In this document: positions 37,866 through 51,082 of the stretch, in pieces | Layout: each line of letters opens with the position of its first letter | Position numbering within the stretch: position 1 is the stretch's first letter | DNA from: Clostridiales bacterium | GTDB lineage: Bacteria; Bacillota; Clostridia; Christensenellales; Pumilibacteraceae | Length of the DNA: 64,000 nt | Assembly: GCA_022511445.1 (NCBI GenBank) | Contig: JAFLVE010000010.1 | Coordinates: 201,387 to 265,386, forward strand | Direction: 5' to 3' | Position numbers and translations under genes: made by a program | The notes under the pieces: model-generated | What the model saw: the letters and a program-made list of their open reading frames with translations, nothing else | Told to the model about the DNA's origin: nothing | Database searches by the model: none

Positions 37866-37894
37866 TTGATTATTTCTTTCTTTTTTGCTATTAT
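37866..37894 (+). promoter_or_regulatory. Promoter of the dnaD-dnaC-like genes
   Basis: TTGATT, 17 bases, TATTAT, 41 bases before the dnaD-like ATG. The longer ORF-track start at 37885 lies inside this promoter. Confidence 0.8.
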
Positions 37895-37935
37895 ATTACA
37901 ACCTGCTTCGATTTTCAAGCAAAAAGGGGTATATA

Positions 37936-39348
37936 ATGTTTAAACTCTCGTCGGAAGCGAGTTTAGACGGATCTATCACCGTCGAAAACAAATTTATTGT
38001 CGAATACCTGCCGTATGCGGACGGCGATTACGTAAAGGTCTATCTTTACGGGCTTTCGCTTGCCGGCAGAAAAAGCGATTCCGACGACACTGTCGATAGG
38101 CTTTGCCGCAGACTCGACCTCGACCGCGCGACCGTCGACGCCGCTATAGATTATTGGTGCGAGGCGGGGCTTATGTCGAGACTGGGCGACGATATTACAT
38201 ATCTCTCCCTACGTACCGCTCGCGCAAAAATCAAAAAATACGACGTCGACCTTTACCGCGAGTTTAACAGACAGGCGCAGCTCTACATCTCGGCACGGCA
38301 GATTGCTCCTAACGAGTTTAACGAATATTACGCGTTAATGGAAAAGCTTAAAATCGAATGGCAGGCAATGACCCTCGTCGTCAAATACTGCGTCGACCTT
38401 AAGGGTGACAATGTTTCGTCGAGCTATATTCTCGCCGTGGCGCGAGGTCTTGCCCAGGACGGTTACCGCACCTACGACGAGGTGGAATCCCGTCTCGAGG
38501 AGTACGGCGTTTATTATAACGAGCTTAAACAGCTTCTTTCTGTTTTGGGCGGAAAAAAACCCGACCACGAAGCGTTCGAGCTTTATAAAAAATGGCTGAA
38601 AACGTATAAATTCAGTCGTGACACTATTCTCCATGCCGCTTCTTACGTAAAAAAGGGCGGGATTGCCGTTCTCGACGCAAAGCTGACTTCTTACACGGAG
38701 CTTGGGCTCACTACGCCTACCGCAATCGATTCCTACGAAGCCGACCGCGCCGAAATGTACAAGTTTGCCCGCGCGGTAAATAAAGAGCTCGGCGTTTACT
38801 ACGAAAACAGCGATCCCGAGATTAACAGCTTTTTGCGGCCGTGGCTCGACCTCGGCTTTGAAAAAAAGGCGATTATCGCGCTTGCAAAGCATTGCTTTAT
38901 GCTCGGGCTTAAAACCCTGCCCGACCTCGACGCCGTCGTAAGGACTTACCTTGCCGAAAACATTCTCACCGCAAAGGGCGTTGAAGAAAAGCTCAATAAA
39001 GAAAAACGCCACGATTCCGCGATAGAGGATATTATGAAAACGATCGGACTTAGCGGCGCAGTAAAGGCGGCGTACCGCGCGTTCTATCAAAACTGGTCGG
39101 GCGTTTGGGGTTTTTCGGACGAGGTTATTTCGTATGCGGCGACGCTTTCGGTCGGCAAAACCTTTGCGTATATAAACGGCGTACTTGCCGCCTGGAAAAA
39201 CTGCGGTGTAAAATCCGTCGACGAGGCAAAGGCGGCGGGAGCAAAAACCGAAGCTAACAATTCCGACGGCGGCAACGTTACCGAACGCATTTCCGCCGAT
39301 ACTCTCAATTCTCTGTTTACGCAAATTTCTGGAGACGATAATGAATAG
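37936..39348 (+). CDS. DnaD-domain replication protein
   Basis: DnaD/DnaB-type proteins of low-GC Gram-positives load the replicative helicase at origins and restart sites. Start at the ATG after AAGGGGTATATA gives 470 residues. The N-terminal 100 residues look like a winged helix (EYLPYADGDYVKVYLYGLSL, DRATVDAAIDYWCEAGL). Two helical repeats follow (ILAVARGLAQDGYRTYDEVE and later IIALAKHCFMLGLKTL). The final DnaB_2-type domain has WGFSDEVISYAATLSV and YINGVLAAWKNCGVKSVDEA, the characteristic motif. It overlaps the dnaC-like gene by eight bases. Confidence 0.88.
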   Translation: MFKLSSEASLDGSITVENKFIVEYLPYADGDYVKVYLYGLSLAGRKSDSDDTVDRLCRRLDLDRATVDAAIDYWCEAGLMSRLGDDITYLSLRTARAKIKKYDVDLYREFNRQAQLYISARQIAPNEFNEYYALMEKLKIEWQAMTLVVKYCVDLKGDNVSSSYILAVARGLAQDGYRTYDEVESRLEEYGVYYNELKQLLSVLGGKKPDHEAFELYKKWLKTYKFSRDTILHAASYVKKGGIAVLDAKLTSYTELGLTTPTAIDSYEADRAEMYKFARAVNKELGVYYENSDPEINSFLRPWLDLGFEKKAIIALAKHCFMLGLKTLPDLDAVVRTYLAENILTAKGVEEKLNKEKRHDSAIEDIMKTIGLSGAVKAAYRAFYQNWSGVWGFSDEVISYAATLSVGKTFAYINGVLAAWKNCGVKSVDEAKAAGAKTEANNSDGGNVTERISADTLNSLFTQISGDDNE

Positions 39349-40225
39349 TTACGACAAAGCAGTTCGCGAGATTGTAAATCGCAGAAGAGAAGATCTCGAC
39401 GCGGCGACTATTTTGTGGAACGACGCGCTCCGCGCCGACGAACGCTTACGCGCCGCGTTTTCCGATTATCAGGCGGAAATGATAAAAAACGCTATGGGCG
39501 AGCCCGATACTCTAAAAAAATCGCAGGAAAAGCTCGTTTCGGAAATTGCTCGACTCGGTATAGATAAATCCGTTTTCAGCCCTCCGCCCCATTGCAAGGC
39601 TTGTAACGACACAGGCTACGTTAAAGGTAAATATTGTAAGTGCGTTATCCGCGAAGCAATAAAAAAAGATAAAAATAATCTCACTTTACCTATTATCGAC
39701 TTCGCTAAATATTCAAAAACCGCCCCGTCCGCCATAAAAAAACTTTACGCCGAAGCGAAGAAGTTTATCGATTCTTACCCGAACGGGGAAAAGGTTTTCT
39801 TTAATATTATCGGCAATCCGGGTACGGGAAAATCTATTCTCGCCGCGGCGATTGCCTCGTCCTTTATCTCCAAAGGCGCTTCCGCCGTTACAGTCACCGC
39901 CTTCGATTTTGTAAGGCGCGCACTCGACTACCACACTCAATTTAAGATTGACGATTATATCGACAGGTTTACTCCCATGCTCGACTGCGAGCTTCTCGTT
40001 ATCGACGATCTTGGAAAAGAGAGCATGTTTAAAAACGTTACTCTCGAATATCTGTATGCCGTTATCGACGCCAGATGGCGCGCAAAAAAATACACGGTTA
40101 TTACTTCAAATCTTACGCCCGACGGTATTATTTCCCGCTACGGCGAGGCAATCACCTCTCGACTCTTAGACAAGAGCGTCGCGCTCAACTTTACAGTTTT
40201 CGCCAAAAACAGCCGAATTTCTTGA
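39341..40225 (+). CDS. DnaC/DnaI-like helicase-loading AAA+ ATPase
   Basis: Helicase loaders place the DnaB-family hexamer on DNA. The 294 residues have an N-terminal helical region (about 1-75), a zinc-ribbon-like CKACNDTGYVKGKYCKC, then the AAA+ domain: Walker A IGNPGTGKS near 165, a Walker B LLVIDDLGKES near 230, sensor I VITSNL, and the arginine-finger region SRYGEAITSRLLD. The ATG sits eight bases inside the dnaD-like gene with GGAG before it, so expression is coupled. The replicative helicase dnaB is 19 kb to the right. Confidence 0.92.
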   Translation: MNSYDKAVREIVNRRREDLDAATILWNDALRADERLRAAFSDYQAEMIKNAMGEPDTLKKSQEKLVSEIARLGIDKSVFSPPPHCKACNDTGYVKGKYCKCVIREAIKKDKNNLTLPIIDFAKYSKTAPSAIKKLYAEAKKFIDSYPNGEKVFFNIIGNPGTGKSILAAAIASSFISKGASAVTVTAFDFVRRALDYHTQFKIDDYIDRFTPMLDCELLVIDDLGKESMFKNVTLEYLYAVIDARWRAKKYTVITSNLTPDGIISRYGEAITSRLLDKSVALNFTVFAKNSRIS

Positions 40226-40888: not shown

Positions 40889-41030
40889 TTCTTTACCGAT
40901 ATTGTAGTTGTTACTTTATCTTAACTGCAATTTAACTAATTCTTGTCAAAGATTATTCTATGTTTTATACGCAAACACAACCCGCCGCATGGTGGTAACT
41001 GTTAGTCAATTAATCAATTGTGCGGCTTTG

Positions 41031-41365
41031 TCTTAGGCTCCCCTGTGTAAGGGCAGCTCCGCCGTTAAGCGATGGGAGGTTGTACGCTCCGTCCGCAACC
41101 TTCTTCGGTCGAAGTGATGTGCGTCGCGTAAAAAGCCTCCCCTGTGCAAGGGGCGCGACAGAGCTCAAGAAAACAGTCCGGTGGACTGGTTTTAGCCAAA
41201 GCGAGGCGCAATTTGTAATTGCGTCCGGGGTCTGTCACGAGGCACGAGTGACTGAGGGGTTATACACACCGCTCCGCAAATTTTTCGATCGAAATGGTCG
41301 TCGCGAAAACGGCTCCCCTGTGTAAGGGGGCTCCGCCGTTAGGCGGTGAGGGGATGTAGGCTTCG
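41031..41365 (+). repeat. Three tandem copies of the CCCCTGTG structured repeat
   Basis: Copies at about 41034-41120, 41134-41300 and 41311-41365. Each starts CTCCCCTGTGTAAGGG or the GCAAGGGG variant and ends with a GGGG-containing arm. The middle copy has a variable hairpin (AACAGTCCGGTGGACTG), GCGCAATTTGTAATTGCG and GTCACGAGGCACGAGTGAC. Related copies occur at 7.2, 23.8, 52.1, 53.4 and 55.7 kb. Confidence 0.8.
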
Positions 41366-41633
41366 GACGAAATGATGAGTTGGGAGGAAGTATTTTCGGT
41401 AATTCTTAATTCAAGCGCTATTACGTTTTCGCGCCGCTCATCACCCCGAGCTTGTCGGGGAATCTAGGCGCCCCCTACATAGTCGCAAAGCTAATAATTT
41501 TTTTCGTCGGCTATCTCGTTCTTCCCATTTTCTTTGCACTCCCCTTTTCGTCAGGCTTGTAATCACTTCTGTACAATTTAACATTAAATTCCTGTCCGCT
41601 GCGCGTACCGCCGATTTTTTATTTTTTATCGCA

Positions 41634-42368
41634 CCTTAAAAATTCCTGATTTGCTAAACCGTCGGTTTGTTTATACGGTAGGGTATACGCAAAAACTTGT
41701 CCTTGTTGTTTTTTCTGTCTCACAGCGCGACTTTTTTTCGGCGCCTATACTTCATTTATTCGCCCCCCCCCCGATTATAATCCGCTTCTGCATATTCGAT
41801 ATTCTCTTGTCTATACTTTTTTTATCCGTAGTATTTTCATTGCGTTTTTCCTGTTGCTTTCCCTTTTCGATGTTTTCGTGCGAAACGACAGAAAATCGGT
41901 CGTTTTTTCTTGACTCGATTTTTCAGCGCCGCTGTGCTTATTTTAAAAAATCCGTATTTACTAAACCGACGGTTTAGTTACACGGTGGGGTATACGCTAT
42001 TATTCCTCTTGCATGTATTTTTCTGTCTCACGCCGCCCGTATTTTTGGGTAGTTTTTAGTTCCAATCTTATTATACCCTTTCCTCGATTCGTTTTTTGTT
42101 GCACTATAACTATCTCGGCTATTACTGCAAAGAAAATCGAGTTTATTTACTAAGCCCGCAATCTGTTTAACTTCGTTTTTCTCGATCCGATTTTTACCCG
42201 CAATTTCTCTCATAATACGCGCTCCTTTTACTTCGCTCAAATTTTACTCGCTCTGCGTAAATTTAAAAAATTCCTGATTTACTAAACCGTCAGTTTAGCT
42301 ATACGGTAGGGTATCCGGATATATTACTCCTACATGTATTTTTCTGTATCAGAACGCCGTTTTTTGGC
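41634..42368 (-). repeat. Three copies of the CTAAACCG-palindrome unit
   Basis: Palindromes at 41654-41670, 41961-41977 (perfect CTAAACCGACGGTTTAG) and 42282-42298. Each is preceded by TTAAAAAATTCCTGATTT-type sequence, followed by TACGGTAGGGTATACGC and, about 35 bases on, by TTTTTCTGTCTCAC. A fourth copy lies inverted near 50.7 kb and a lone TTTTTCTGCGTCAGACCG segment at 42715-42732. Confidence 0.8.
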
Positions 42369-42372
42369 AAGC

Positions 42373-42412: not shown

Positions 42413-42673
42413 TTATTCAAGTTTGTTATGTTCGCTGTCGGGATCGTCGTGCATAGCGTCGGTAACGTTCGAGCTCTCTTTTGTACTCTCGCTGTTTTCG
42501 CCGCTTTCGGTTAAACCGCCCTCATCCTTTTCCTTCTTTTTCTTTTCGAGGTGTTTGGATATAAGTAGGTATGCGGCGAGGAGTCCCACGATTAGCAACA
42601 GGAATAGCACTCCGACTATATAATACACCGGGCTGTCCGGATTATTGAACGCGTCAGACGAAATATATATCAT
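42413..42673 (-). CDS. Small single-pass membrane protein
   Basis: An 86-residue protein of unknown function. A hydrophobic helix (VYYIVGVLFLLLIVGLLAAYLLI, residues 16-38, shown for position) is followed by KHLEKKKKEKDEGG and an acidic/polar tail ending DSEHNKLE, so the tail is probably cytoplasmic. A good ribosome binding site (AAAAAAGGAGAACAA) supports it. It follows smpB by 73 bases and ends at a strong terminator. Confidence 0.75.
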   Translation of the reverse strand: MIYISSDAFNNPDSPVYYIVGVLFLLLIVGLLAAYLLISKHLEKKKKEKDEGGLTESGENSESTKESSNVTDAMHDDPDSEHNKLE

Positions 42674-42746: not shown

Positions 42747-43247
42747 TTATCTGCTGTTGTAGCTGTTGATTTCCCTTTCGGCGGCGCGGTTTAGGTCGCG
42801 TTCCTTTTTAACCTGCTTCTTTTCGTAATTCTTTTTGCCTCTTGCAAGGGCTATTTCCACTTTGACAAACCGTCCTTTAAGGTACATTTTGACCGGCACG
42901 ATGGTGTAACCCTTTTCCGCCGCCTTGCCGCAAAGCCTTTCGATTTGAGTTTTGTGCAGCAAAAGCCTCCTCGACCGCGTCGGGTCGGGAGGAAAGGCGC
43001 CCACCTTTGCGTACGGTGTAATATGGCAGTTTTTAAGCTCGAGATTGCCGTTTTCGACGTGACAAAAGCTGTCGCGCATGGACACGTCACCCTTTTTGAC
43101 AGACTTGACCTCCGAGCCCTCGAGCGCGATACCCGCTTCGAACGTCTCTTCAAAGTAATAATCGAATACCGCCTTTTTGTTGACCGCTACCACTTTGTTC
43201 TCGACTTTTTTTACTTTATTATTCTTTCTTTCCGTTTTGCTCTTCAT
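42747..43247 (-). CDS. smpB: SsrA-binding protein SmpB
   Basis: SmpB binds tmRNA and brings it to stalled ribosomes for trans-translation. The 166 residues include NKKAVFDYYFEETFEAGIAL, GSEVKSVKKGDVSMRDSFCHV, and the C-terminal ARGKKNYEKKQVKKERD that reaches the decoding centre. An N-terminal Lys/Asn-rich leader of about 20 is extra. tmRNA itself was not found in the window. It starts six bases after mnmE. Confidence 0.97.
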   Translation of the reverse strand: MKSKTERKNNKVKKVENKVVAVNKKAVFDYYFEETFEAGIALEGSEVKSVKKGDVSMRDSFCHVENGNLELKNCHITPYAKVGAFPPDPTRSRRLLLHKTQIERLCGKAAEKGYTIVPVKMYLKGRFVKVEIALARGKKNYEKKQVKKERDLNRAAEREINSYNSR

Positions 43248-43253
43248 ATATAC

Positions 43254-44585
43254 CTACTTTCCCACGCAAAACCGTTCGAAAACAGAGGAAATAACCTTTT
43301 CGTCCGCCGCCTCGCCGAAAAGCTCCGTTATCGCCGAATACCCTTCGTAAAGCGCCGCGGCGACAAGCTCCAGCCCGTCTGCCTTTTTACTCTCCGCTTT
43401 TGCCGAGTTCACCGCGTCAAGGCACCGTCTTACGCAATCGAACTGCCTGTGATTGCAGATTCCGCTAACCTCTTTCGGGCAAAGATCGTAAATTCTCTCC
43501 TTTAGCGCCGTTATATTTATTTTGTACTTGGCGCTGACCTTAAGCTTTCCGTCCTCGGTCGCCGTTTGATAGTCCGTATCGGCGTCCTTCACCCCGTCGC
43601 TTTTATTGAGGACTGTTATAATCGGCTTGCCGAAATCTGGTATAATGTCCGTTTTGACGCTCTCAGTCACAAAAATTACCGCGTCCGCTTCTTTTGCCGC
43701 CGTTTTTGTGCGCTCGATTCCTATTTTTTCCACCTCATCGTGTGTGGAATCGTTTAATCCGGCTGTATCCGTAACCGTGAACTTGCGGTGTTTATATACG
43801 TAACTGCCGTCAATCGTGTCTCGAGTCGTGCCGGCAACGTCGGTCACTATCGCTCTGTCCTCGCCGAGTAGAGCGTTAAGCAGCGTGGATTTTCCCACGT
43901 TCGGCTTACCGACAAGTGCAACCTTAAATCCGTCCTTTATGATTTTTCCGCCCGCATACCCTTTTATCTCGGTTTCGAGCCGAGCCGTTATTTCATCAAG
44001 CGCACCGTAAACGTCGCCGAGCAACCTCTCGTCCGTTTCGCCGTCTTCCAATTCGTCGCTGTAATGAATTACCGCCTCGATTGTGCTTAGTGCCCTGTTA
44101 AGAAATAGTTCGACGTCTTTTAAGCTGTTTATTCCGTTATACCGAGCGTTTCCGTAGTTAAGCTGTTCGGGCGTTTCGGCGTCTATTATGTCGGCAAGGG
44201 CCTCGCACTCCGTAAGATCGAGCTTTCCGCTTTTAAACGCGCGTTCGGTAAACTCTCCGCGCTCAGCCGCTCTCGCTCCGCCGCCGATAAGCGCTTTTAT
44301 TATCGAATCTATTATAAGAGTATTCCCGTGCGGATACAACTCGACTATATCTTCTCCCGTGTACGTTTTCGGCGCTTTGAAGTACGCCGCCATCAAATTT
44401 TCGGTAAAGTCACCCGAAGTGAACACGTTGTACTTGATTTTTCCCGCCTTCAGCTTGTTCTTTAGAAACCTTTCCGCCAAGGCTTTACTGTCTTTTCCGC
44501 TCATTCTGATAACGGCAATCGCCGATTTACCGTACGGCGTCGCCAAAGCAACAATTATTCCGTTTTTTGAACATGCGGTGTTCAT
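43254..44585 (-). CDS. mnmE: tRNA uridine-5-carboxymethylaminomethyl modification GTPase MnmE
   Basis: With MnmG it modifies the wobble uridine of certain tRNAs. The 443 residues include the N-terminal folate-binding domain ([52 protein letters not shown] in part), the G domain from about 215 ([39 protein letters not shown]) and the terminal FCVGK whose Cys is essential. mnmG, its usual neighbour, is absent here. It heads the mnmE-smpB-small-protein set. Confidence 0.98.
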
Positions 44586-44893
44586 AAATTTTCTACCTTT
44601 TGTATATATATCGCCCGATTTTTGGTTTTACGGAAACTTTTTTCTTAAAAAGCTACTTTACTTTTTTCCTTATCAAATATGTAATGTTTATACCTTTCGG
44701 TTATTTACAATTGTTTGAACACGGTTTATATACTTTACGCACATGGATAATTTTATAACTATTTTTACCTTTTGTGCTTTTAGTTGCGGTAAACTACCGT
44801 ATTTTGTTGTCCTCGCCTGTTATACACATTTATACACCGTCTATTATATATTGCTTTTATCATATAAAATATATAATATAACACAATAAGAAG
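44586..44893. other. AT-rich intergenic region with DnaA-box-like 9-mers (candidate origin element)
   Basis: A 308-base AT-rich gap between mnmE and rsmG. It contains TTATACACA (44820-44828), a perfect DnaA box, and TTATACACC (44830-44838), one base apart and in the same orientation, then a run of nearly pure A/T (44840-44885). Further single-mismatch forms such as TTATTTACA (44701) occur. DnaA boxes next to an AT-rich unwinding element are the usual bacterial origin plan. dnaA is not adjacent, so it remains a candidate. The mnmE promoter must also lie here but I see no clean one. Confidence 0.4.
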
Positions 44894-45544
44894 CTATTTT
44901 GCGTATACCAGTATCCTTCTTTTTATATCCGTCTCCGGAAGAACGTAGTCTAATTGCTTAATTAGCTTTGTTTCAGTTTTTTGCATAGTTTGTGATTTTG
45001 CCGGGTTGTCGTTTTGAGTTCGGTATAAAATAACCAAACCGCCTTTTTTTGCAAGCGGCGCGCACAGAGTAAGAGCCTTGTCGACGTCGGCGAGTGCGCG
45101 GGCGCAAACGGTGTTGTAAGATTTGTGAAGCTTGACGAGTTCCTCGGACCGCGCGTATTCCGCTTTTACGTTTTTCATGCCGAGCTCGGTTATGCAGCGT
45201 TGAATGAGAAGCAGTTTTTTTCCTACACTGTCCAGTCCCGTTATGTTAAGTTCGGTCGTGAGGGCGAGAGGTAAAGTGGGAAAACCACCGCCGCATCCCA
45301 CGTCGCAAACCGTACCTTTGAATAGATCGTACGGATAAATGCTGTCGAGGTAGTGCTTAATGTAAATGTCGTCGATCGTTTTAAGCGCCGAGATGTTTAC
45401 TACGGAATTAACCTGAAAGTATAAATCCGTAATTTTGTCGAAGTCGTCTATCAGTTCGGGTTTTCTTACTTTATCGGTCAAGAAGTTAAGTAGGATTTTT
45501 CGGCCGCGCGACGATTCTATTTGGTTTTTGAGCTGTTCGTCCAT
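44894..45544 (-). CDS. rsmG: 16S rRNA guanine-N7 methyltransferase
   Basis: It methylates G527 of 16S rRNA with SAM. The 216 residues have the family segments VNISALKTIDDIYIKHYLDS, the SAM-binding VCDVGCGGGFPTLPLAL and ITGLDSVGKKLLLIQRCI, and RALADVDKALTLCAPL with the catalytic-region Arg. AAGGTGAAAG precedes the ATG. In most Firmicutes it sits between mnmG and parA/parB next to the origin; here it follows lepB by eight bases and parB is 2.6 kb away. Confidence 0.96.
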   Translation of the reverse strand: MDEQLKNQIESSRGRKILLNFLTDKVRKPELIDDFDKITDLYFQVNSVVNISALKTIDDIYIKHYLDSIYPYDLFKGTVCDVGCGGGFPTLPLALTTELNITGLDSVGKKLLLIQRCITELGMKNVKAEYARSEELVKLHKSYNTVCARALADVDKALTLCAPLAKKGGLVILYRTQNDNPAKSQTMQKTETKLIKQLDYVLPETDIKRRILVYAK

Positions 45545-45552
45545 CTTTCACC

Positions 45553-46320
45553 TTAGGTTGACTCGTAGTTGTTAAACATAAATCTCAGAATTCTTTCCGC
45601 GGCGCTGCCTTGATCTATTATTTTAATGACTTTTCCTATTATTTTGTTTTTCGGCCGCGTTCCGTAATTTCGTGAGTCGCTCGAGTAGTTTCTGTTGTCA
45701 CCGAGAAAAAAGATTTCTTCTTTGGGAACGGTAGTGCAGTTTTTAGCTATTTCGGTCTGTAATGCCGCCTTGTCCGAGTCGGAGTAAGCCTCGTTCATAT
45801 CGATTTCGGTTATTCTCTGTTCGGATTTGTAGGTTATTACCGATATTTTTTTGCGTAGTGAGGAATCGGGATCTTCCACCCACTTCATTTTTTCTAAGAT
45901 GTACGGCTCGTTCATCAGCTTGAACTTCGATTGTCCGACTTCGCATATATACATATCCACATATTGTCCGTATTGGCTTTTTACAAACAGAATTTTGTCG
46001 CCTTCGAGCCCAATTACGCGTTTTATGAGGATATGTGCCTCTTCCTCTTTGTCGTCATCGTCGTCGGTCGGAACGTCTATCGTTATTATGTCGCCGCGGT
46101 TGAGCGTGTAGTACCGCCTCTGAAGTAGCACGCACTGTCCCGATTCGATTGTGTTAAGCATGCTGTTACCCTTAATGGGCGAAAAGGAATACATGTAATA
46201 GAAAAAGACGAGTCCCGAAAATAATAAAACAAACCCCAAAAGTACGATATCAAACACAATCGGGGTTTTGTTTTTTTGTCTATCGAGGAGAGCGTCGCCG
46301 TCTTCTATTCCTACGTTCAT
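45553..46320 (-). CDS. lepB: Type I signal peptidase
   Basis: A membrane-bound serine/lysine protease that removes signal peptides from exported proteins. The 255 residues have one N-terminal transmembrane helix (IVFDIVLLGFVLLFSGLVFFY, near 20-41 in part), the catalytic serine in IKGNSMLNT, RGDIITIDVP, the catalytic lysine in ILIKRVIGLEGD, and FFLGDNRNYSSDSRNYG. A Glu/Asp-rich insert (DDDDDKEEEAH) and a longer loop near 135-175 are unusual. It follows the hydrolase-like gene with one base between. Confidence 0.95.
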   Translation of the reverse strand: MNVGIEDGDALLDRQKNKTPIVFDIVLLGFVLLFSGLVFFYYMYSFSPIKGNSMLNTIESGQCVLLQRRYYTLNRGDIITIDVPTDDDDDKEEEAHILIKRVIGLEGDKILFVKSQYGQYVDMYICEVGQSKFKLMNEPYILEKMKWVEDPDSSLRKKISVITYKSEQRITEIDMNEAYSDSDKAALQTEIAKNCTTVPKEEIFFLGDNRNYSSDSRNYGTRPKNKIIGKVIKIIDQGSAAERILRFMFNNYEST

Positions 46321-46321
46321 G

Positions 46322-47974
46322 CTACACCCACAGCATGGAGCTTATTATAAATTCTTTTTCCGAAGTAAATTTAATAAATACCGCTTTGGAGAAGTTTTGC
46401 AAAATACTGCCGTTAACGCTCTTGAAATCGGTATTGGAAAGTGTAAATTTATGCCAGTCGTTGGAGTTTGTTATTGTAACGTTTGTTTTATATGTTTCTT
46501 TTCCGTCGCTTAAAACAATCGTTACAGCCTGCGGTTCGCCGCATGCGATAATTTGTAGGAGCGAGTCGTTATTTGCCGTATAAAGCAAATCTCCCAGCTT
46601 AAACGATATAAGCGTTTTGGAATCGCTCGAAACTCCCTGTATTTCGTACGGTCCCGTCTTAATTGATATGTTTCCGCCGTCCGAGCTTGTCCAAACGTCT
46701 TTGCCCGAATTTCCGTCGAAAATAAGCTTTTGCTTGAGCATCGGCGACGCCGTTATGTTCAGCGATTTGGGAACGACCGTTATCATGGCGCTCGAGGACA
46801 CGACGCCGTTTTTGTCGGTCAGATTGACGAAAGCGTACGTAGGCCGCGTGTCTTGGATAACGCTTACCCTTGCCATGTACTCCCCTCCGCCGAGGCTTAT
46901 AAGTGGAACGCCAGTCCAGTTTCTGTACCTGGAATCGTCTATACCGTATGCCGCAAACAGCTCAACCTTGCCGCCGTCGCCGGAATTGTCCGCTTTTTCG
47001 TTAGAAACGATATTAAAATATAACGAATTTTCGGAGTTGGTTGCCTTTACTTGCGGTCTCGGAACGTCAACGTTGCCTTTGGCGCTATCGTGGAAATACG
47101 TCGAAACCTGATCGTATGTCGCTTTTATTCCGCTTTTAAATGAGCGCTCGCATATTCTTAAGCATTTAAGCGAGGCCGTGAGCGTCGCAAGCTCGGACAT
47201 GTCGTCAAACGAACGATCCTCGTCGTTGGTCGAGACGCACATAAGCAGAGGAACTTTTGTCGCGGCTGCGTACGAATGGTTGTCGAGCGCGGCGCGGTAG
47301 TTGATTAATGGATTGCCGGTACCGCTCACCTTGGGCAGTACGTTTAGCGACGTGGCGGCGGCTTTAAGCCCGTCGTCGAACGCGCACATTTTATATACGG
47401 TGCTTCCGCCCAATCCAATGCCCCAGGCGAATATATTCTTTTCGGCGTACTTATCCTTAAGAAGCTTTACGGCGCGTCTTGCCATACACGCCCAGGCAAA
47501 CCAACGGCTGTTTAGCGTGTCGTCGGGCGCCACAAACTCTGTCGCCCCGATGCAGTTGCACTCTTCGAGCGATTTGGGATATATCGTATAGCGCGAGTCG
47601 TCCTTGTTTTTTCCGCTGTAATCGAGCACCGCAACGGTAAAGCCGCGCTCGTACAATTTAAGTGCAGGCTCCTCGTTCCCGTCGGTATCGGGCAAAAATA
47701 GGACAATTCCGTCCGATTTTTCATTTTCGTATATCTTGAGATAGGTACGAACCTTGCCGTCTAAGGTAGTATACCCGTCGAAATAGTACTCGCGTACTTT
47801 CTTTCCGTCTATTTGTTTTTCCGACAGCGCGTAAGGATTGAGCGGTAATGCCGTAACCTCATAATCCTTCCATAAGCTGTTAATTCCCGTAATTTCCAAG
47901 CTGACGCCCCTGTTTACCGAATTTTCCCAATTATATACCTTATTTTTGTATTTGTCAAGCATTGCATAACCCAT
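46322..47974 (-). CDS. Alpha/beta-hydrolase-like protein lacking the nucleophile serine, with C-terminal beta domain
   Basis: A 550-residue protein. Residues about 90-300 look like an acyl-hydrolase/esterase fold: DGIVLFLPDTDGNEEPALKL, GFTVAVLDYSGKN, and a nucleophile-elbow position WGIGLGGSTVYKM. The elbow consensus GxSxG here reads G-I-G-L-G, so the serine is replaced by Gly; a Ser lies three residues further. LLMCVSTNDEDRSF is where the acid would be. The remaining 250 residues look like beta-sandwich modules (ASPMLKQKLIFDGNSGKDVW). No signal peptide is evident. Either an inactive homologue or an enzyme using another residue. It is the first gene of an apparent lepB-rsmG operon. Confidence 0.7.
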   Translation of the reverse strand: MGYAMLDKYKNKVYNWENSVNRGVSLEITGINSLWKDYEVTALPLNPYALSEKQIDGKKVREYYFDGYTTLDGKVRTYLKIYENEKSDGIVLFLPDTDGNEEPALKLYERGFTVAVLDYSGKNKDDSRYTIYPKSLEECNCIGATEFVAPDDTLNSRWFAWACMARRAVKLLKDKYAEKNIFAWGIGLGGSTVYKMCAFDDGLKAAATSLNVLPKVSGTGNPLINYRAALDNHSYAAATKVPLLMCVSTNDEDRSFDDMSELATLTASLKCLRICERSFKSGIKATYDQVSTYFHDSAKGNVDVPRPQVKATNSENSLYFNIVSNEKADNSGDGGKVELFAAYGIDDSRYRNWTGVPLISLGGGEYMARVSVIQDTRPTYAFVNLTDKNGVVSSSAMITVVPKSLNITASPMLKQKLIFDGNSGKDVWTSSDGGNISIKTGPYEIQGVSSDSKTLISFKLGDLLYTANNDSLLQIIACGEPQAVTIVLSDGKETYKTNVTITNSNDWHKFTLSNTDFKSVNGSILQNFSKAVFIKFTSEKEFIISSMLWV

Positions 47975-48138: not shown

Positions 48139-49026
48139 ATGTCGGCTGTAAGAAAAGGTGGATTGGGTAAAGGGCTCGGCGCTCTTCTCAGCGATATCGA
48201 AAACGAATCGTCCTACGGAGCGAGCGGCGACGGCGCGGTAAACGAGCTTGCTGTTTCGGATATAGATCCCAATATAGATCAGCCTCGAAAGGAGTTTGAC
48301 GACGACGCGCTTTCCGCCCTCATTGAGAGTATTAAAACGCACGGCGTAATTACCCCGCTTGTCGTTACACCCAAGCCGGACGGCAGATATTTGATTATCG
48401 CCGGAGAACGCCGCTACCGCGCCGCGAAAGCTGCCGGACTTACTACTGTGCCTGTATGTGTACGCGACTGCACCCCCGTTCAAATAGACGAGCTCTCTTT
48501 GATAGAAAACATTCAGCGCGAGGACCTCAACCCTATGGAAGTAGCGCAGGCGATTAAAAAGCTTATGGACGACTACGGTTATACGCAGGAGCGCGCCGCA
48601 GAACGTATCGGTAAGGCTCGCCCCACCGTCGCCAACCTTTTAAGGCTTTTGGAGCTTGACGAGTCCGTACAAAAGCTTGTTTCCTCCGGCAGACTTTCCG
48701 CAGGACACGCGCGTTGCCTTGTCGTTATATCCGATTCCGCCAAACAGCTTGAGCTTGCCGAAAAGGGCTGCGACGACAAAATGAGCGTGCGCGAGTTTGA
48801 AAAGCTTGTTAAAAACACCAAAAATCCCCAAAAACAGAAGCCCGCTCCGCAAATAGGGCTTGAGCTAAAGGACATGATTGTCCGCATGCAGCGCACCTTC
48901 GGAACTAAGGTCAGCTTGCTCGGCAACGACAATAAAGGTCGCATTTTTATCGATTATTACAACCCCGACGACCTCGCCCGCATAGAAAGCATGCTCTCCT
49001 TCCTTGAAAACAACTACAACAAATAA
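48139..49026 (+). CDS. parB: Chromosome-partitioning protein ParB (Spo0J type)
   Basis: ParB binds parS, spreads as a CTP-dependent clamp and recruits SMC. The 295 residues contain LGKGLGALLSD at the N-terminus, IDPNIDQPRKEFDDDAL, the CTP-binding GERRYRAAKAAGL near residue 90, ENIQREDLNPMEVA, a helix-turn-helix near 150 (YTQERAAERIGKARPTVAN) and SGRLSAGHARCLV. The ribosome binding site is ACGGAGGATAATT. The adjacent 5' neighbour is a divergent hydrolase-like gene; parA is not found in the window. Confidence 0.97.
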   Translation: MSAVRKGGLGKGLGALLSDIENESSYGASGDGAVNELAVSDIDPNIDQPRKEFDDDALSALIESIKTHGVITPLVVTPKPDGRYLIIAGERRYRAAKAAGLTTVPVCVRDCTPVQIDELSLIENIQREDLNPMEVAQAIKKLMDDYGYTQERAAERIGKARPTVANLLRLLELDESVQKLVSSGRLSAGHARCLVVISDSAKQLELAEKGCDDKMSVREFEKLVKNTKNPQKQKPAPQIGLELKDMIVRMQRTFGTKVSLLGNDNKGRIFIDYYNPDDLARIESMLSFLENNYNK

Positions 49027-49028
49027 AT

Positions 49029-49044
49029 TGTTCCACATGGAACA
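49029..49044 (+). other. parS site 1
   Basis: TGTTCCACATGGAACA begins three bases after the parB stop codon. The Bacillus parS consensus, TGTTNCACGTGAAACA, differs at two positions (CA for CG in the centre, G for A). Confidence 0.85.
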
Positions 49045-49076
49045 TTTCTAATATCAATATACCGTGTAAATATCAA

Positions 49077-49115
49077 AGAGGCTCGCCCAATAACGTGGAT
49101 GAGCCTCTATTTTTG
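49077..49115 (+). terminator. Terminator of parB
   Basis: AGAGGCTC and GAGCCTCT pair around a 16-base loop, followed by ATTTTTG. Confidence 0.88.
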
Positions 49116-49148
49116 CCTTAATTCGAGCGGCGCACAGCAGAATTAAAT

Positions 49149-49164
49149 TGTTCCACATGAAACA
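49149..49164 (+). other. parS site 2
   Basis: TGTTCCACATGAAACA, 120 bases after site 1, one difference from the Bacillus consensus (A for G in the centre). Confidence 0.85.
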
Positions 49165-49251: not shown

Positions 49252-50505
49252 TTACTTCTTTCGCCCTATGTCTATATTGTCCTCTTTGCGGTTGCGGAGC
49301 GCTTTTACGGGATGCTCGGAAACGGTATAGCGGTAGTCCTCGCCGAACTCGGAAATATAAGAGTCAATCACCTTATGGCTTGCGACGGAAGACGGGTTTT
49401 TGTTAACCGCGTTGTTATATCTGAAATACTCGTAATTGTCGGGCACGTTTGTAATATCGGTGTACTCTTCCAAAACAGCGGTGTTTGTAATGGTATTTTT
49501 AAGAATGTTGCGGATATAGTTTTTGTTCTTTTCGTAGTTGTCGTTAAATGTTAAGAGCTTGGGGAATTCTCCGTCGGGGATAACCTGAGCCCACTCTTTC
49601 TTCTCGTACTTTTGGAGAAGCTCTACGGCGTAGTGCAAGTGTGACAGCTCCTGCTCGAAATGGTCGGTCCAAATCTTTTTAGCGACGTCGTTTGTTTCCT
49701 CGGTCATTGCGGAGTAGTAAAGATAACACTCGGCGTACTCGTGCATGAGCAAGCATTCGAGCGGGGTTGTCGTCGCGTCCATAAGCGACTCGTATTGGGT
49801 AACGTGCTGTTCCTCGATCATTCCTACTTCGAGGAAGAGCTTTCTTCCTATATCGGACGACGGATAGAAAGTGCCGAGATTCATATAAAAGTTCATTGTT
49901 TGCTGTTCGGCGGCTGTGATTATCATTGTGTTAAGCTTGGTGGAAAGAGGCGAGCTTGGCGGGATTGCGCGACGAACGTCGTCAAACGGATGACGGTGTT
50001 CGGCAATCGTCGGTCTGCCCGGCATAATCTCGGTGTAGGAGCCGACGAGCTTTTCGCCCGCAACACCCTGCTCCATTTCGAGAAGATCGCTGAAGCGGTA
50101 CAGGTGGTCGAAGTCCTCGAGGAGAGCAAAGTCGAGGGCGGCCTTGACGTACTTATTCTTTTCGTTCTGGGCGAGAATGGCGGTAAGGTCGACGGCAAGC
50201 TGCTCGTAGGAGATAGTTGTTTCGAGCATAGACTCGTCTTTAGGCTTAAAGAACGAAATGCGTTTTTGTTGTTGCTGTTCCATTCGGCGTAGAAGTCCGA
50301 CGTCGCGCCGCAGGTCGTTGTTGGTTGTGTTTCGAACGAGATTATGCATAAACCAACATTGCTCAAACTCGGTGCCGTTAAGGAGAATGGTACGGACCTT
50401 TGTATAAGCGTCCGTGTCGTGTTTGTGGTAAGCGGTCGGGTAAAGCTTCTTCCAATCGGAAGTACACCTTTCGATAGAGTACGATTTTTCTTTGAACGGA
50501 TTCAT
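49252..50505 (-). CDS. Ferritin-like di-iron protein of unknown function
   Basis: A 417-residue protein that I do not recognise as a named family. The second half has the ligand spacing of a four-helix di-iron bundle: Glu in TAAEQQTMNFYMNLG, ExxH in GMIEEQHVTQYESL, Glu in HEYAECYLYYSAM, and ExxH in EQELSHLHYAVELL. An N-terminal helical half (SYEQLAVDLTAILAQNEKN, ALLEDFDHLYRFSDLLEME) may be a second or degenerate bundle. The C-terminal 90 residues are Asn/Asp/Tyr-rich. Possible roles are iron or oxidant handling; a true ferritin is encoded 2 kb away. The ATG at 50503-50505 follows GGAGGTGAAC and is preferred over the in-frame GTG two codons upstream. The gene is convergent with parB. Confidence 0.75.
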   Translation of the reverse strand: MNPFKEKSYSIERCTSDWKKLYPTAYHKHDTDAYTKVRTILLNGTEFEQCWFMHNLVRNTTNNDLRRDVGLLRRMEQQQQKRISFFKPKDESMLETTISYEQLAVDLTAILAQNEKNKYVKAALDFALLEDFDHLYRFSDLLEMEQGVAGEKLVGSYTEIMPGRPTIAEHRHPFDDVRRAIPPSSPLSTKLNTMIITAAEQQTMNFYMNLGTFYPSSDIGRKLFLEVGMIEEQHVTQYESLMDATTTPLECLLMHEYAECYLYYSAMTEETNDVAKKIWTDHFEQELSHLHYAVELLQKYEKKEWAQVIPDGEFPKLLTFNDNYEKNKNYIRNILKNTITNTAVLEEYTDITNVPDNYEYFRYNNAVNKNPSSVASHKVIDSYISEFGEDYRYTVSEHPVKALRNRKEDNIDIGRKK

Positions 50506-50980
50506 GTTCACCTCCGTAACAGATTATTTCCAAGACGAAATAAATTAAACATCCAACCGCAACGAATAAAGTTATAAAACAATAATATTATATTATAATA
50601 GTTATTTAAGAATAACGAATAAAAAACATGGAGGATTGGAGCGGCTGAAAACATTTTTTTGGGGGAAAAGTGAGACGTTGTGAGACAGAATTTTTTTGAA
50701 ATCGCAAAATTTTTCGGGCGCCCGACGTCACGCTAAACCGACGGTTTAGAAAATCAAGATTTGAGCCACCCAAACGCAGAATGAACGAAGGGGTTGCGGC
50801 GCGGCGTGAAACAGAATATTATGTAAAACCGCATAAAAACGAGAGGAAAAAAATACAAAGGGGTATAGAGGGAAATAAATAAGCAAAAGCTATAATCAAC
50901 AAACACAAAGCCGATTTTGAAAGCGATAACGAAGTAGCAAAAATGAGGCGGAGGTTTGAATAAAGAGGGAGGTGAAAAAA
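50506..50980. other. Purine-rich intergenic region with inverted copies of the palindrome unit
   Basis: No gene up to the small peptide at 50981. The first part (50560-50630) is very AT-rich. The rest is strongly purine-rich on the plus strand and contains the inverted palindrome unit (50668-50765) and a partial second GTGAAACAGAATATT unit (50800-50820). Confidence 0.65.
50668..50765 (+). repeat. Inverted copy of the CTAAACCG-palindrome unit
   Basis: GTGAGACAGAATTTTTTTG, then the perfect palindrome CTAAACCGACGGTTTAG at 50733-50749 and AAAATCAAGAT. Read on the minus strand it has the same order of blocks as the three copies at 41.6-42.4 kb; the 40 bases between the palindrome and GTGAGACAG differ from them. 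Confidence 0.75.
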
Positions 50981-51082
50981 ATGGTTAAGAATACCAAGAC
51001 GTCCAAGTCCGGCAACAGCCCTAAGCAGACTGCAAGCGGAACGAAGTCGAAGAAGACTACTACCACTAAAAATTGCAAATAA
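50981..51082 (+). CDS. Small basic Lys/Thr/Ser-rich peptide
   Basis: A 33-residue ORF too short for the track. The start is strongly supported by GAGGGAGGTGAAAAAA before the ATG, and a clear terminator follows the TAA. The sequence starts MVKNTKTSKSGNSPKQ and continues with Lys, Thr and Ser repeats (KSKKTTTT), ending KNCK with one cysteine. Eleven Lys and no acidic residue make it strongly basic, so it could bind nucleic acid or be secreted, but nothing in the sequence proves either. It lacks a hydrophobic helix. No family recognised. Confidence 0.75.
   Translation: MVKNTKTSKSGNSPKQTASGTKSKKTTTTKNCK

Follow-up and report, generated by a model that had tools for sequence, protein, structure and literature searches.

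What is the function of a palindromic repeat that occurs in three copies on one side of a presumed bacterial replication origin and in a single, inverted copy on the other? The question arises from a 64,000-nucleotide stretch of the genome of a Clostridiales bacterium of the family Pumilibacteraceae (hereafter the window, meaning the whole stretch analysed). An earlier note, made from the letters alone, had described three palindromic units at a spacing of about 310 bases in a non-coding region at 40,889-42,372, together with an inverted fourth and a partial fifth copy at 50.7-50.8 kb, and had read them as binding sites for an origin-associated protein or as a small repeated element. Here we define the element as a unit of ~95-115 bp, of which the palindrome CTAAACCGNCGGTTTAG is the core and which carries ordered blocks on both sides. 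Full units were placed with R1, a covariance model built from 58 units, and those of the window are as follows:

41620-41733, minus strand: origin-bracket unit, outermost of the left cluster; palindrome 41654-41670 with 2 mismatches, CTAAACCGTCGGTTTGT; R1 74.5 bits
41927-42041, minus strand: origin-bracket unit, middle of the left cluster; palindrome 41961-41977, perfect; R1 93.2 bits
42248-42362, minus strand: origin-bracket unit, innermost of the left cluster; palindrome 42282-42298 with 1 mismatch; R1 103.3 bits
50670-50783, plus strand: origin-bracket unit, single copy on the right side; palindrome 50733-50749, perfect; R1 72.6 bits

The left cluster is a family of three 105-nt direct repeats spaced at 307 and 321, which bears out the coordinates, block order and spacing first reported, and the inverted fourth copy is a full unit with a perfect palindrome, the ordered blocks being alignable over all four. 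The window holds these four palindromes at up to 3 mismatches against 0.42 expected (none of 100 shuffles gave four), and at up to 2 mismatches they are the only ones in the entire 1.86-Mb assembly. The supposed partial fifth copy near 50.8 kb has to be dropped, being merely a GTGAAACAG-like stretch with no R1 match even with filters off, and the interval initially assigned to the repeats was too wide, its first half (40.89-41.6 kb) holding unrelated short repeats and no unit. Short repeats at 41030-41372, with CTCCCCTGTGTAAGGGG and GCTCCGCCGTTA..GCGGTG, are unlike the units and resemble a dispersed intergenic repeat. Just beyond the right unit, at 50972-51082 on the plus strand, a 36-aa ORF (MKKMVKNTKTSKSGNSPKQTASGTKSKKTTTTKNCK) with a ribosome-binding site shows conservation at the DNA level in G018.

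Between the left cluster and the right unit lie the following features:

42413-42673: small membrane-protein ORF, nearest to the left cluster
42747-43247, minus strand: smpB (Pfam SmpB, 7.5e-54), the block gene nearest the left cluster apart from the small membrane-protein ORF
43254-44585, minus strand: mnmE (trmE; Pfam TrmE_N, MnmE_helical)
44586-44896, no strand: rsmG-mnmE gap, the probable oriC, with an AT-rich stretch and DnaA box TTATACACA (44820)
44894-45544, minus strand: rsmG (gidB; Pfam GidB, 6.7e-26)
45553-46320, minus strand: signal peptidase-like gene (Pfam Peptidase_S26)
46322-47974, minus strand: 550-aa protein with no Pfam or NCBIfam match, hydrolase-like by eye
48139-49026, plus strand: parB (Pfam HTH_ParB, 2e-36; ParB_N, 3e-30), the single ParB-HTH gene found in the genome
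49029-49044, no strand: parS-like site TGTTCCACATGGAACA
49149-49164, no strand: parS-like site TGTTCCACATGAAACA
49252-50511, minus strand: 419-aa protein with no Pfam or NCBIfam match, the right-hand gene of the block

Across 19 genomes of the genus, the block comprises smpB, mnmE, rsmG, the signal peptidase-like gene, parB and the genes of the 550-aa and 419-aa proteins, and in some genomes also a ~483-aa gene (phospholipase D-like by eye) and the small membrane-protein gene. Standard DnaA boxes (TTATCCACA) form no cluster near the units or near dnaA; it was the degenerate motif TTRTNCACA that located the origin, with 27 occurrences in 5.7 kb of rsmG-mnmE gap against 12 in 194 kb of remaining block (4.71 and 0.06 per kb, respectively; ~76-fold enrichment, p=6e-33, 19 genomes). 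This gap, ~290-350 bp long, carries conserved TTATRCACA/TTGTRCACA boxes followed by an AT-rich stretch and, as judged from its sequence, is the probable oriC. The units themselves are not a DnaA-box cluster, TTRTNCACA being concentrated in the gap and absent from their consensus. Two to three parS-like sites lie between parB and the gene of the 419-aa protein in every one of the 19 genomes, and in both contigs examined the minimum of cumulative GC skew coincides with this parS array, ~4.4 kb from the presumed oriC (window 49284, contig C1 250670, and the corresponding place in G001, C1 62017); fourfold sites, as a means of placing the skew switch, are confounded by codon bias. The mirrored flanking of the origin that had been proposed thus holds, in that the units have between them a DnaA-box-rich oriC (44586-44896) together with a parS array (49029-49164). 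Towards smpB they lie 2.1-4.7 kb from oriC and on the opposite flank 6.0-9.1 kb, and because these distances are uneven, a simple symmetric device at oriC is unlikely.

The 419-aa protein beside the parS array appears to be under unusually strong constraint, with identities of 79-84% to most genus members and 96% in the closest; the corresponding value for MnmE is ~60%. In 20 of 20 genus genomes dnaA lies on a different contig from oriC, and in the window's own genome, G000, a ParA homologue is likewise on another contig. A DnaD-domain gene and a DnaC/DnaI-like helicase-loader gene adjoin the left cluster (window 37885-40225, plus strand), and this pair is also found near the block, on either side, in several genus members. 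Elsewhere, an island of 34.6% GC in a contig of ~51% GC is likely to be foreign DNA (L049 1-10000 or nearby; G000 C1 80001-90000).

The genus to which the window's genome belongs was sampled with 20 genomes, including that of Anaerocaecibacter muris CLA-AA-M11 (family Pumilibacteraceae in NCBI), nearly all genomes used here being draft or metagenome assemblies. Fifty-eight full units were found, spread over all 19 genus genomes that hold the parB region, at one to three per flank and two to four per genome; in the assembly of the twentieth (76% complete) parB was unmatched. Similarly, the palindrome with at most one mismatch occurs in two to four copies in 19 of the 20 genus genomes and in none of 41 genomes of other genera. 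Searching 74 genomes of the family with R1 gave 59 strong matches, every one of them in an origin flank of the 19 genus members and none elsewhere in those genomes, as well as two weak ones (E 0.002 and 0.03) that correspond to a degenerate copy beside the G005 units and to the reverse strand of a known G016 unit. In 20 genomes of other genera R1 gave no match better than E=1.1 over the parB regions, and the unit was not recovered. Among 396 genomes of the order, the 15-bp core was present in eight genus members and in one of the 388 others, there as a bare core, and the palindrome without the remainder of the unit turned up on one viral contig (L168) and in one distant genome (L169). In the literature searched, no publications on origin elements in this family were found.

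The earlier note had proposed that genome copies be counted and oriented, and had held that an even scatter in random orientation, or a match to a known transposable element, would refute its reading. Copies were instead confined to the surroundings of the origin and all directed away from it, with no match in plasmid, phage or Rfam collections. A mobile-element origin of the unit was rejected on the plasmid and phage searches, and a dispersed repeat or MITE on the placement of every copy within the origin flanks. Another palindrome, GGGCGATTCGTGAATCGCCC, is frequent near parB in two sister genera (L157, L161, L195-L202) and was considered as an analogue; since G030 carries it on other contigs too, it resembles a dispersed repeat and was rejected. 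As the element is confined to one genus, any function that it serves would be lineage-specific.

Aligned over the 58 units, the element reads from its inner to its outer end roughly as GRCG-N8-CGRAAT-TTTACATG-(A/G-rich)-TTTTCG-ATACCC-N3-CGT-NNNN-CTAAACCGNCGGTTTAG-YAAATCAAGATTTTT, with a nearly gap-free internal spacing. In the dyad no unit departs from AAAC or GGTTTAG, the centre base varies freely, and most columns, like those of a neighbouring AAAT, show little or no variation. Units of G000 have 77-79% identity to those of G018, its closest relative in the set, compared with 53-61% for the surrounding DNA (gaps counted as differences); left and right units of one genome are only ~64% alike outside the dyad. 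None of the eight dyad pairs has changed on both sides in the 58 sequences, and the sole consensus fold is a small dyad hairpin of -3.1 kcal/mol. No Rfam family matched the six loci holding units at gathering score, and no tRNA was found in the loci scanned. A structured RNA was rejected on the absence of compensatory change in the stem and of an Rfam match. Conservation at the level of single bases, with no covariation, is what a protein-binding dyad in DNA would show, for which reason we take the unit to be a DNA site rather than an RNA.

All units bracket one shared block of 8-13 kb. With orientation set by the AAATC-AA-GATTT side of the unit, each of the 58 full units in the 19 genomes points outward, away from the block. 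This count overstates the number of independent events because genomes of one genus are not independent, and recurrent inversions of the block are a better argument for selected polarity. Its orientation relative to the outer flanks, known for about half of the genomes, was derived from reciprocal best hits, which for most genome pairs are uniform, being either same-sided or opposite throughout, with G018 mixed. By this measure the block in G002 and G010 is opposite to that in G004, G005, G007, G014, G015, G016 and G019, every flank gene common to such a pair (4-18 per pair) lying on opposite sides; G002 and G016 are sisters on the block-protein tree. Between species the block therefore occurs in both orientations relative to its flanks, as an invertible element does. 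Counting G000/G018, the whole block has probably flipped at least three times against its outer neighbours (parsimony by eye, with the outer flanks assumed fixed), and through these inversions the units stayed at the block edges with their outward polarity. Where the small membrane-protein gene lies with respect to the units is consistent with breakpoints at the inner unit, at a resolution coarser than single bases. Compared with all other members of the genus, G017 has parB alone inverted inside the block and flanked by longer gaps at either end (L038 7124-7912).

Together these features suggest that the unit is probably a docking site for a dedicated origin-handling protein, because it brackets the origin/centromere block, always points outward and is found nowhere else in the genome. 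The interpretation first offered is supported in part: origin-only location, outward polarity and base-level conservation fit binding sites, and protein binding itself is what we infer from them. The reading towards which we lean is that a dedicated protein acts at these sites on the origin/centromere domain through boundary formation, bridging or anchoring. The units would then be cis-acting DNA sites dedicated to the origin domain of the chromosome, each a composite protein-binding site. Its 17-bp dyad (CTAAACCG-N-CGGTTTAG, with a free centre base) would be bound by a dimeric protein of helix-turn-helix type, while the asymmetric blocks, GRCG...CGRAAT and ATACCC..CGT on one side and AAATC-AA-GATTT on the other, would bind partner subunits and confer polarity; the conservation of these blocks does suggest partner proteins and would explain the polarity. 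Bound proteins would define or bridge both edges of the oriC/parB/parS block, as a boundary, a loop anchor or a cell-anchor of newly replicated origins, with the outcome that origin and centromere behave as one unit. A boundary or bridging function is preferred here over a direct role in initiation. Against this reading, the search gave no binding protein: ParB, which is provided with parS sites of its own, is the one block protein with a DNA-binding look. A more far-reaching and decidedly tentative proposal is that the units belong to a new origin-domain system, in which a protein complex on polar composite sites would mark, and insulate or anchor, a movable and invertible oriC-parS cassette. 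Since Anaerocaecibacter muris CLA-AA-M11 is a named isolate, direct isolation of the binding protein is possible.

The inversions themselves raise an alternative, that the units are recombination sites and that the oriC-parS block is flipped by crossing over between left and right copies, either through a site-specific recombinase or because these short inverted repeats recombine homologously. The inversion of the block against both outer flanks in some species would be expected on this account, as would the location of tm86 (the small membrane-protein gene) inside, between or outside the units, which fits breakpoints at the inner unit, and crossing over at the dyad would preserve polarity. 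We nevertheless consider it unlikely. A dedicated recombinase is weakened as a candidate because, of the tyrosine recombinases, a single one looks conserved across the genus (G000 and G017 have one in total), and this enzyme is most simply the chromosome-dimer recombinase, a finding that bears neither on homologous recombination nor on a serine recombinase; a dif-like site was not supported, as no tyrosine recombinase beyond the dimer-resolution enzyme looks conserved. Serine recombinases make a 2-bp staggered cut, to which a dyad with an odd, free centre base is ill suited, and a likeness of ~64% between left and right units outside the dyad is poor for homologous recombination. Furthermore, inversions centred on the origin are frequent in bacteria that lack elements of this kind (PMC9584773). 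As a separate observation, several genus genomes have a single tyrosine recombinase (an open frame of ~362-380 aa), a hint of a single-recombinase Xer system.

Fixed polarity on both sides and origin-only location would also be expected if the units were Ter-like polar barriers to replication forks near the origin, for instance a brake after initiation, and a dyad within an asymmetric site is somewhat like ter of B. subtilis. This we think improbable: the terminus region is where known Ter sites are located, the unit has ~3 times the length of a ter site, and no homologue of RTP (PF02334) was matched in the window's own genome, the B. subtilis control being matched, so that an RTP-Ter terminator was not supported. 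Slighter still are the prospects of a promoter or small-RNA element that drives or encodes a short transcript. Its weak promoter-like words (TTTACA, TATACC), the T-run after the palindrome and the fixed internal spacing would suit such an element, but no conserved gene lies downstream of all units, the spacing does not match sigma-70 or sigma-B promoters (by eye), and the lack of covariation, the small hairpin and the absence of an Rfam match speak against an RNA product. A small non-functional repeat of MITE or REP-like type, spread locally, is strongly disfavoured, since the variable copy number (two to four per genome) and the other repeats in adjacent DNA are outweighed by constant polarity, base-level conservation at genus depth, the lack of copies elsewhere in 19 genomes and of plasmid or phage matches, and the occurrence away from the origin of those sister-genus palindromes that do resemble dispersed repeats.

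With dedicated protein-binding sites at the edges of the origin domain as the preferred reading, several known systems invite comparison. The Noc-binding sites (NBS) and RacA sites of B. subtilis are palindromic and organise the nucleoid or the origin region. They number tens of copies dispersed over large regions and differ in sequence, whereas the units number two to four and lie at block edges only. An identity with NBS was rejected because no second ParB/Noc was found in the genome: its one HTH_ParB gene encodes a ParB that scores 213 against TIGR04285 (Noc), below the cut-off of 315. Like parS, the units are palindromes clustered near the origin, and the span that they bracket is similar to the ~10 kb occupied by ParB in Caulobacter (PMC5815017). 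However, the even, 16-bp palindrome of parS occurs in the same block at sites of its own (TGTTYCACRTGRAACA), and the unit has a 17-bp dyad of unrelated sequence with large conserved flanks. The palindrome was rejected as parS because the dyad CTAAACCGNCGGTTTAG does not match parS (TGTTTCACGTGAAACA) and parS-like sites lie between parB and the gene of the 419-aa protein.

Polar protein-DNA sites in opposed groups are also the arrangement of Tus-Ter and RTP-Ter (PMC13220808), protein binding by the units being our inference. The ter site of B. subtilis spans 32 bp, and its two imperfect inverted repeats bind two RTP dimers (PMC13220808); the units are longer composite elements, located at the origin rather than the terminus and with no RTP homologue in the genome. 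Inverted segments that contain the origin are likewise known from RASR (PMC9584773), compared with which the segment inverted here is short and has edges coinciding with clusters of a dedicated conserved element.

The layout resembles that of archaeal origin recognition boxes (ORBs), the sites of Orc1/Cdc6, in which an inverted repeat sits in an asymmetrically bound element and mirrored copies flank the origin (PMC6742236), and in both cases the element sets polarity. Unlike the units, ORBs are adjacent to the DNA-unwinding element and oriented towards each other for MCM loading; the units point outward, 2-9 kb from a bacterial oriC with DnaA boxes, and this distance from the oriC gap led us to reject an ORB in the strict sense. 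It is the resemblance of the ~10-kb span to the range of ParB, and of the layout to ORBs, that leads us to favour a role in forming a boundary, in bridging or in anchoring. To the DnaA boxes, unwinding elements and parS for which bacterial origins are known, a conserved and strictly polar bracket element that keeps its polarity through inversion of the whole block would add a further level at which the origin is handled, be it a boundary, a bridge or a form of fork control.
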